From: Candidatus Babelota bacterium
GTDB lineage: Bacteria > Babelota > Babeliae > Babelales > UASB340
Direction of reading: 5' to 3'
NCBI GenBank assembly: GCA_014730005.1
Contig: WJIY01000017.1
Span: 72,800 to 115,303, forward strand
Length of the DNA: 42,504 nt
The translations under genes were made by a program, and so were the position numbers. The notes beneath the pieces are model-generated. The model did not search any database. It saw nothing but the letters and a program-made list of their open reading frames with translations, and was not told the origin of the DNA. Below are positions 41,361 to 42,504 of the stretch, one piece after another. Positions within the stretch are counted from its first letter, which is position 1. Every line of letters begins with the position of its first letter.

Positions 41361-41418
41361 GATCCCTCGATACATCCGCCTTCGCTAAAAGCTACGGCGG
41401 ACACTCGGGATGAGCGGG
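41361..41418 (+). repeat. Palindromic repeat, copy 1
   Basis: Intact copy. It begins GATCCCTCGATACA and ends GGGATGAGCGGG. Outer arms ATCCC/GGGAT and inner arms TCCGCC/GGCGGA can pair around TTCGCTAAAAGCTAC, in which GCT and AGC can form a further short stem. It is far more GC-rich than its surroundings. Confidence 0.88.
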
Positions 41419-41521
41419 AAATAAAATCGTATCTTTTAGGATTATTACTTATTAAGTTCGCGCTTAATTATTAATGAGTTTACTTGATTCAGCTTGCCTT
41501 TAGTCATGATCCCTCGATACA
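41391..41521 (+). repeat. 131-bp perfect direct repeat, left copy
   Basis: Positions 41391-41521 are identical to 42374-42504. Each includes the right half of one palindrome, an 89-nt spacer (containing ATTAAG-TTCGCG-CTTAAT, a small hairpin) and the first bases of the next palindrome. The right copy is cut by the window edge, so the identity may go further. The two flank the GIY-YIG gene at a distance of 983 bp. Identity over an AT-rich spacer indicates recent duplication or gene conversion. Confidence 0.95.
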
Positions 41522-41564
41522 TCCGCCTCCGCTAAAGCTACGGCGGACACTCGGGATGAGCGGG
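41508..41564 (+). repeat. Palindromic repeat, copy 2
   Basis: Intact copy with the variant loop CTCCGCTAAAGCTAC, one base shorter than copy 1. Same orientation as copy 1 and 89 nt after it. Inner arms TCCGCC/GGCGGA are conserved. Confidence 0.88.
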
Positions 41565-41760
41565 GGGTGAGAGTTTGTAAGATTTTTTATGATTATTTTT
41601 GACATATTTCTCTTGATAAGATTCTCATATCTAAACAGGATGATCTAAGGATATTTTGATAAACGGACGGCATCAAGTGATTTTGATAAACATGCTAATC
41701 CCAAGTGATCTAATGGATGCTTCAAAAGTGAGCTTAAATATTTTTTGAATACAATTCCCC

Positions 41761-41814
41761 CCTCATCCCGAGTGTCCGACGTAGCTTTAGCGAAGGCGGA
41801 TGTATCGAGGGATC
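41761..41814 (-). repeat. Palindromic repeat, copy 3 (inverted, left border of the nuclease gene)
   Basis: Copy in the opposite orientation, 24 nt beyond the 3' end of the GIY-YIG gene. One inner-arm base differs (TCCGAC instead of TCCGCC). Its outer flank, read on the minus strand, contains TTGTATTCAAA, also found outside copy 4 (CTGTATTCAAA). Copies 3 and 4 with their flanks therefore form an inverted pair around the gene. Confidence 0.88.
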
Positions 41815-41838
41815 GTATTTATTTAATAGTTAATAGAA

Positions 41839-42126
41839 TTACTTGAATTTCTTTTTAGAAAAATTAGAAAGTTTCGTCCAATTTTTTTCAATCAATGCTT
41901 CTTTTTTTCTTCTAGACCAATTTTTTATTTTGCGTTCAACTACAAAGGCAGAATCTCTTGTTTCAAATGTTTGATAAAAAACTAATTTTATAGGACGTCG
42001 TTTAGATGTATATTTACAATACAAACCAATTTTATGTTCTGATATTCTTCTTTCTAAATCATCTGTATGACCTGTATAATAAGAGCCATCATTACATTTT
42101 AAAATATAAACAAAGAAGCAATTCAT
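41839..42126 (-). CDS. Single-domain GIY-YIG nuclease (UPF0213/YhbQ-like)
   Basis: A 95-aa protein consisting of just the GIY-YIG nuclease fold: VYILKCNDGSYYTGHTDDLE at 6-25 with Y7, Y17 and G19, the basic RRISEH at 26-31 including the catalytic arginine, YTSKRRPIKLVFYQTFETR, and the metal-binding glutamate E64 in VVERKIKNWSRRKKEALI. Key residues are all present, so it should be active; the family cuts DNA, but the target of this subfamily is not well defined. It has a short AGG site and an ATG start. It is enclosed by inverted copies of the palindromic repeat at 41761-41814 and 42194-42250, and by longer direct repeats outside, suggesting that gene and repeats form one unit. Confidence 0.93.
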   Translation of the reverse strand: MNCFFVYILKCNDGSYYTGHTDDLERRISEHKIGLYCKYTSKRRPIKLVFYQTFETRDSAFVVERKIKNWSRRKKEALIEKNWTKLSNFSKKKFK

Positions 42127-42193
42127 AAAAACCTAATCTGTAAAAATGTTTTATATAATAAGATTTAATTTATAAAAAAATACATATATATCA

Positions 42194-42250
42194 ATCCCTC
42201 GATACATCCGCCTTCGCTAAAAGCTACGGCGGACACTCGGGATGAGCGGG
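42194..42250 (+). repeat. Palindromic repeat, copy 4 (right border of the nuclease gene)
   Basis: Intact copy with the same loop as copy 1 (TTCGCTAAAAGCTAC). It stands 67 nt upstream of the GIY-YIG start, facing away from the gene, and forms the inverted partner of copy 3. Its outer flank shares the TGTATTCAA block with copy 3. Confidence 0.88.
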
Positions 42251-42294
42251 GGAGAAAAAACTGTATTCAAATGTTTTTTTAAATAATTAGTGTT

Positions 42295-42346
42295 GATCCC
42301 TCGATACGTTCGCATCCGCTAAAGCTACAACGGATACTCGGGATGA
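42295..42346 (+). repeat. Palindromic repeat, copy 5 (diverged)
   Basis: Diverged copy (inner arms TTCGCA and AACGGA no longer fully complementary). It is directly abutted by copy 6, giving a head-to-tail tandem. Outer arms ATCCC/GGGAT are kept. Confidence 0.82.
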
Positions 42347-42401
42347 CCCCTCGATACGTCCGCCTTCGCTAGAGCTACGGCGGACACTCGGGATGAGCGG
42401 G
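42347..42401 (+). repeat. Palindromic repeat, copy 6
   Basis: Copy in tandem with copy 5. Here the inner stem is extended to GTCCGCC/GGCGGAC, a perfect 7-bp pairing where the other copies have an A-C mismatch. The loop is TTCGCTAGAGCTAC. Confidence 0.85.
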
Positions 42402-42504
42402 AAATAAAATCGTATCTTTTAGGATTATTACTTATTAAGTTCGCGCTTAATTATTAATGAGTTTACTTGATTCAGCTTGCCTTTAGTCATGATCCCTCGA
42501 TACA
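42374..42504 (+). repeat. 131-bp perfect direct repeat, right copy
   Basis: Identical to 41391-41521 and ends only because the window ends. It includes the right half of copy 6, the 89-nt spacer and the first bases of copy 7. Confidence 0.95.
42491..42504 (+). repeat. Palindromic repeat, copy 7 (cut by window end)
   Basis: The first 14 bases, GATCCCTCGATACA, match the start of the repeat exactly. It follows the same 89-nt spacer that precedes copy 2, so the array clearly continues beyond the window. Confidence 0.8.

Follow-up and report, generated by a model that had tools for sequence, protein, structure and literature searches.

A GIY-YIG nuclease gene between inverted hairpins: a candidate REP/RAYT-like element with an unrelated enzyme

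The closest described counterparts of the locus analysed here are the GTAG REP/RAYT systems (REPtrons and REPINs), in which high-copy hairpins occur as dispersed solo copies and inverted pairs, a nuclease gene lies between inverted hairpins, and this gene persists vertically over the long term. Our locus shares all of these features, but its enzyme is of the GIY-YIG type rather than a Y1 HUH tyrosine transposase and its hairpins lack the GTAG tag. A second point of comparison is provided by free-standing GIY-YIG homing endonucleases of the phage T4 Seg type, small selfish intron-free genes that repair copies into the site that has been cut. The same route is proposed here for a similarly small, intron-free GIY-YIG gene, except that the enzyme would target a hairpin repeat, which brackets the gene as well, in place of a unique allele. 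The third comparison concerns the CGTC REPs (dRS3 of Neisseria, RPE-4/RPE-6 of Rickettsia), which are defined by a CGTC or TGTC/CCTC tag, an 8-9 bp stem and a CCA tail. These have been stated to lack a dedicated transposase, in a paper in which GIY-YIG genes are unmentioned (Di Nocera et al. 2013, PMC3733652). The palindromes of our locus (CCGYTCR..) do not show this combination and appear to be a family separate from the CGTC REPs. No paper linking GIY-YIG genes to REPs, RAYTs, MITEs or palindromes was found in the open-access literature, to which the search was confined, so that priority is not certain.

The window locus and its own genome

The window is the whole 42,504-nt stretch of DNA that was analysed. 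Repeat analysis of positions 41361-42504 identified a GC-rich imperfect palindrome of ~52 bp, in six full copies and one that is cut, around a single intact 95-aa GIY-YIG ORF, as the preliminary description of this DNA had reported. The features are as follows.

41361..41412, + strand: palindrome copy 1 (repeat analysis, blastn)
41390..41521: direct repeat, left copy, 132 bp, perfect (D3)
41506..41814: unit of palindrome, 190 bp and inverted palindrome, segmentally duplicated without the gene
41508..41559, + strand: palindrome copy 2 (repeat analysis, blastn)
41744..41756: outer inverted flank TTTGAATACAATT, pairing with 42259-42271 (I17; 13 nt, 92%)
41763..41814, - strand: palindrome copy 3, the left arm of the element, with outer end CATCCCGAG.. 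and inner end ..TCGAGGGATC toward the gene
41839..42126, - strand: stand-alone GIY-YIG nuclease gene, 95 aa, subfamily A, with Y7, Y17, R27, H31 and E64 kept
42194..42245, + strand: palindrome copy 4, forming the right arm and inverted with respect to copy 3
42259..42271: outer inverted flank AACTGTATTCAAA, pairing with 41744-41756 (I17)
42295..42346, + strand: palindrome copy 5, diverged, directly abutting copy 6
42345..42396, + strand: palindrome copy 6
42373..42504: direct repeat, right copy, 132 bp, reaching the contig end, possibly an assembly overlap
42491..42504, + strand: palindrome copy 7 (from 42491), cut by the contig end

The assignment of the window protein to the GIY-YIG superfamily is clear from its sequence. 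The ORF matches PF01541 with E=6e-18 (65.3 bits against a cut-off of 22.6), GIY-YIG is the sole domain detected, and the fold domain is accompanied by the conserved Y, Y, R, H and E residues; among 46 homologues, Y7, Y17, G19, R27 and E64 are invariant and H31 nearly so. The nearest solved structures are the UPF0213 proteins (PDB 1ZG2, 1YWL; E=1e-22), followed by SLX1, a structure-specific nuclease. YhbQ/UPF0213 proteins share the fold and size of the window protein, but its sequence clusters with subfamily A, separate from theirs.

Copies 3 and 4 point toward one another from either side of the gene (inverted-repeat score 43), and TTGAATACA and TGTATTCAA are inverted just outside them (I17), which bears out the earlier claim that these two copies are opposed and have common outer flanks. 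The orientation of copy 3 is that found in relatives, and the pair fits the layout of the family, CATCCCGAG..TATCGAGGGAT, gene, ATCCCTCGATA..CTCGGGATG. Folded as single-stranded DNA, copy 4 beats its shuffled versions (z=-2.4) and the decayed copy 3 does not (z=-0.7). The palindrome ends in CCGCTCA.. and GATCCC, and Rfam gave no match within the window. The outer array requires a more guarded reading. Positions 41390-41521 and 42373-42504 are identical at 132/132 positions, where the preliminary description had given a perfect 131-bp repeat, but the right copy extends to the point at which contig C2 (115303 bp), and with it the window, ends, and contigs C29, C34 and C51 likewise begin or end inside the window repeat. 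Consequently, neither copy 7 nor the perfection of the direct repeat is safe evidence, and copy 7 and the repeat itself may be partly assembly artefact. The picture of a gene nested in a palindrome array stands for the inner pair only: copies 3 and 4 delimit the gene-bearing unit, whereas the outer array is a tandem or segmental duplication cut by the contig end. The unit at 41506..41814 recurs, gene-free, in C51 (95%), C33 (83%) and C29 (85%, cut by the contig end).

The window belongs to a 1.15-Mb Dependentiae-like genome, provisionally so placed from the named relatives recovered with the subfamily. There, a blastn search with the palindrome consensus yielded 39 matches at E <= 1, of which ~30 are strong and concentrated at a few sites, and the exact palindrome pattern gave 17 matches vs none for the reversed control. 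A protein search found three subfamily A genes, and a fourth, degenerate relic is located on contig C23; the whole-genome search that the preliminary description had called for placed all four beside palindromes. Two of them, on C7 and C34, are bracketed by ~90-bp terminal inverted repeats (scores 66 and 92; 66 nt perfect in C7), which have the general form of the window's repeats (CCGTTCGCCCTG..GTCGAATGGG) with a different sequence. Over ~520 bp, the units on C7 and C34 share 90% identity in differing surroundings, as would be expected if one element had been duplicated. Three stops interrupt the C34 gene, and C34:2398-2445 is a hybrid palindrome, half window-type and half C7-type. On C23 (6442-7383; L235), the GIY-YIG relic beside its palindrome is followed by an IS4-like transposase relic, which lies between 63-nt inverted repeats containing palindrome sequence. 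By eye, Fic-like genes were seen to adjoin the palindrome clusters on C33 (L023) and C34 (L024).

Flanking hairpins across GIY-YIG subfamilies

The subfamily A alignment (A1) was scanned against 84,980 species and 80 loci were kept, from Sphingomonadales, Legionella, Chloroflexi, Methylococcales, Bacteroidota, Dependentiae and others. Since knowledge of the A flanks had gone into the explicit A motif, our primary test was motif-free: the 300-bp flanks of each gene were compared for their best ungapped inverted repeat, and a score of at least 16 counted as a pass. Inverted flanks were found at 53 of 74 A genes and at 0 of 588 random same-length intervals from the same loci, and chance inverted repeats were rejected on this ground. 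Because 27 of the 80 loci represent one ancient fixed Sphingomonadaceae site beside a trmJ-like methyltransferase gene, we also collapsed orthologous sites, after which 31 of 41 independent loci passed; in a new, held-out sample of 249 Pseudomonadota, 6 of 7 parsed A loci did so. The expectation of the preliminary description that such nuclease genes lie in repeats more often than chance is thereby borne out, and the opposite outcome, repeats unassociated with GIY-YIG genes or fixed genes free of repeats, was looked for and not found. The flanking repeats are inward-pointing hairpins of the form CCGTTCGnnnTGAG..TCGAAn'n'n' (in general nnnYGAG..TCGARn'n'n'), whose stems covary (2.27 of 3 pairs vs 1.24 when shuffled, at most 1.45) and whose outer ends read CCGTTCG or CCGCTCA, or TGTCA in Bacteroidota. 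Inward hairpins occur upstream of 72/80 A genes and downstream of 74/80, mostly within tens of bp. The arrangement that defines a REPtron, a nuclease gene between inverted dispersed hairpins, is thus present in copies 3 and 4 of the window and at the 53 homologues, with solo copies genome-wide. A genes are seldom on mobile replicons (6 plasmid records; phage matches distant only).

Two further observations concern individual A loci. At Sphingomonadaceae loci including L091, L093 and L104, the GIY-YIG frame continues stop-free across the palindrome downstream of it and into the sequence of a TrmJ-like RNA methyltransferase; the fused ORFs span 350-390 aa, the palindrome would then encode a linker, and a related plasmid record annotates two overlapping genes. 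The Legionella elements L142, L121 and L136 have a further outer inverted repeat (about CTTCCAATTAGCTTAAAGTTTTTGTTGAC) beyond the hairpins, as if nested in another repeat.

We compared four GIY-YIG subfamilies of equal size, namely A, B, C and the YhbQ/UPF0213 type. Subfamily B (NGTLYIGVT..) had inverted flanks at 16 of 30 loci vs 5 of 570 control intervals, and its palindrome, GTCATnCC..GGnAYCCAG, differs from that of A. The B flanks have the CGTC REP form (CGTCATTCCCGCG..CGGGAATCCAG), and in the gonococcus a B gene lies among dRS3-type repeats, CGTCATTCCCGC..GCGGGAAT. No inverted flanks were detected at 11 subfamily C loci or at 11 YhbQ/UPF0213-type loci; with the window gene in subfamily A, a YhbQ housekeeping gene was accordingly rejected as an identification. 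When explicit motifs were used, palA was present on both sides of 61/93 A loci and 0/38 B loci, palB on both sides of 10/38 B loci and 0/93 A loci, and neither flanked any of 640 random pairs. Abundance followed the same pattern in the 249 Pseudomonadota, with p values that ignore phylogeny: genomes rich in palA tended to carry an A gene (OR 43, p=2e-6) and those rich in palB a B gene (OR 9, p=2e-9), whereas the mismatched combination of palA with a B gene and no A gene showed no association (OR 1.3, p=0.6). The correlation was weaker in Dependentiae (p=0.11 with a threshold of >=15 copies, p=0.004 with one of >=5 chosen post hoc). Palindrome-rich Pseudomonadota had no detectable partner gene in 4 of 10 cases for A and 17 of 43 for B, as did 8 of 13 Dependentiae at >=15 copies. 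From these results, we can conclude that hairpin type follows nuclease subfamily and that genome-wide hairpin abundance tracks the matching gene. The palA-rich genomes with no detectable subfamily A gene include G088, G224, G282 and G294, as well as G003, G012, G014 and G044. As a separate observation, 9 of 11 Dependentiae genes of subfamily C (L075, L077, L078, L079 and L081-L085) lie ~10-330 bp downstream of a tRNA or tmRNA gene and co-directional with it, L081 being 12 bp after tRNA-Ala; this position suggests a tRNA-targeted GIY-YIG family.

Site histories and alternative explanations

The preliminary description had also proposed a search for empty sites, and its outcome differed between the subfamilies. 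The clean comparison of solo and occupied sites concerns subfamily B. On the Sphingobium plasmids L274, L281 and L284, the interval between fnrL and a response-regulator gene contains a B gene in the arrangement CGTCACCCCGGGCTTGACCCGGGGTCCCGC-gene-GCGGGACCCCGGGTCAAGCCCGGGGTGACG, while at the same site the related plasmids L277 and L279 have a single palindrome (CGTCACCCCGGGTCAAGCCCGGGGTGACG; CGTCACGCCGGGTCAAGCCGGGGGTGACG in L279) and plasmids L278 and L280 have neither gene nor palindrome. Because both flanking genes group the occupied copies in one supported clade, a single gain into a pre-existing hairpin would be the most economical history, and the solo and occupied states fit a homing pattern with predicted cleavage of the hairpin; the alternative is loss by deletion via the 8-bp ACCCCGGG repeat. 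For subfamily A the best site is that of L118, where gene and palindromes are both absent from four related species, but the junction is not clean and shows intergenic turnover. Just before this element (L118:4300-4940), ~60 bp from the 3' end of the pgsA-like gene upstream are repeated, a possible trace of the insertion event. Only occupied sites were seen when S. meliloti was compared with K101 and among Rhizobium plasmids. No consistent target-site duplication was established, and the 8-bp stem repeat at one informative site can be read as a duplication or as a deletion junction. Hairpins also occur as close pairs: in another Dependentiae genome, 8 of 9 palindrome pairs within 200 bp were inward, mostly ~100 bp apart, and one pair there (L233) has a truncated GIY-YIG gene between its hairpins, as expected of an internal-deletion derivative. 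Among the matches listed, inward pairs of A palindromes 50-150 bp apart were over-represented in G068 (7/8, p=4e-4) and G045 (8/14, p=0.01).

With respect to classical insertion sequences, which combine terminal inverted repeats with a DDE, HUH or serine transposase and a duplicated target, the window has inverted repeats, and an HUH transposase is excluded in its genome: PF01797 (Y1_Tnp) has no match there, so the true RAYT family is absent. The same holds for 13 of 19 palindrome-bearing genomes, this one included (12 of the 18 others), among them genomes with 401 and 201 palindrome copies, and RAYT mobilisation was rejected on this basis. A broader proposal is that the palindromes owe their movement to some other mobiliser, be it an IS200/IS605-RAYT enzyme, a DDE transposase or an unknown enzyme, and that the GIY-YIG gene is cargo. 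The IS4-like relic between palindrome-bearing inverted repeats on C23 would suit this proposal, as would the palindrome-rich genomes that have no GIY-YIG gene, but in addition to the scarcity of Y1_Tnp, no other gene was recurrent between palindromes in the loci examined, and cargo would not give two nuclease subfamilies each tied to its own palindrome. Thus, we regard hitchhiking as quite improbable.

Alternatively, the nuclease could be domesticated, trimming or maintaining hairpins of other origin that are kept as regulatory or terminator elements. Such a role accords with the vertical fixation of many A genes, as at the Sphingomonadaceae trmJ site, with the rank of the structure-specific SLX1 nucleases as closest solved relatives after UPF0213, and with the view that RAYTs, too, have been domesticated. 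However, it does not predict the gene-bearing units in different contexts of one genome on C7 and C34, the truncated-gene element L233 or the presence and absence of a gene at an orthologous hairpin, and we consider it unlikely. Finally, the palindromes might simply be fragile sites or hotspots of recombination at which small genes and duplications accumulate passively. The arrays of the window's genome do show segmental duplication and the hybrid palindrome of C34, and contigs break there, but passive collection would neither pick one nuclease subfamily per palindrome type, nor exclude YhbQ and C-type genes of the same size, nor yield a consistent inward orientation, which makes an insertion hotspot effect very improbable.

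A proposed hairpin-homing system

Our preferred reading, to which we assign a probability of roughly 60%, is that the unit at 41763-42245 is a member of a widespread two-part selfish system, comparable to REP/RAYT, that consists of a subfamily A nuclease and its matching hairpin repeat, the same hairpins numbering up to hundreds per genome, alone or in pairs. The REP/RAYT-like pairing with a GIY-YIG enzyme suggested in the preliminary description is supported by the inverted flanks, the subfamily-specific palindromes, their co-abundance with the gene and the absence of RAYTs from the genome. Some orthologous GIY-YIG genes are anciently fixed, as RAYTs are, and in many palindrome-rich genomes no partner gene was detected. 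We infer from the sequence patterns that the protein cuts or moves the hairpins. In the proposed mechanism, the nuclease would recognise its own hairpin, either as a single-strand hairpin or as a cruciform, and cut it; the broken halves would match the two halves of the hairpins flanking the gene, so that repair from a gene-bearing copy would insert the gene between two hairpin halves and the gene would thereby home into hairpins. Occasional mis-repair or strand invasion would seed new hairpins, fuse halves and build tandem arrays. Such cut-and-repair would explain the bracketed gene, the solo and double states, the hybrid palindromes and the arrays. GIY-YIG enzymes are hydrolytic, and strand transfer would therefore have to fall to host repair. 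The proposed system would resemble REP/RAYT in its outcome and GIY-YIG homing in its chemistry.

More tentatively, and at a little short of even odds, GIY-YIG nucleases may be the dedicated mobilising enzymes of at least two of the most widespread bacterial palindrome superfamilies, CCGTTCG..TGAG/TCGAA and the CGTC REPs including dRS3, with each subfamily recognising its own hairpin. The subfamily B nuclease would then be a candidate enzyme for a hairpin family said to lack one, and a subfamily-specific nuclease partner makes the missing-transposase question of the CGTC REPs directly testable. The recurrence of the hairpin/nuclease pairing across many bacterial groups suggests an undescribed kind of mobile hairpin element, and palindromic repeats of the A and B types are among the commonest noncoding repeats in bacteria. 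If the reading is true, the combination of a REP with a nuclease would have arisen repeatedly in evolution from enzymes unrelated to one another, and a function would be at hand for many small GIY-YIG genes, including some whose annotation is 'excinuclease ABC subunit C', as part of a class of hairpin-homing mobile elements whose enzyme is unrelated to every known bacterial transposase.
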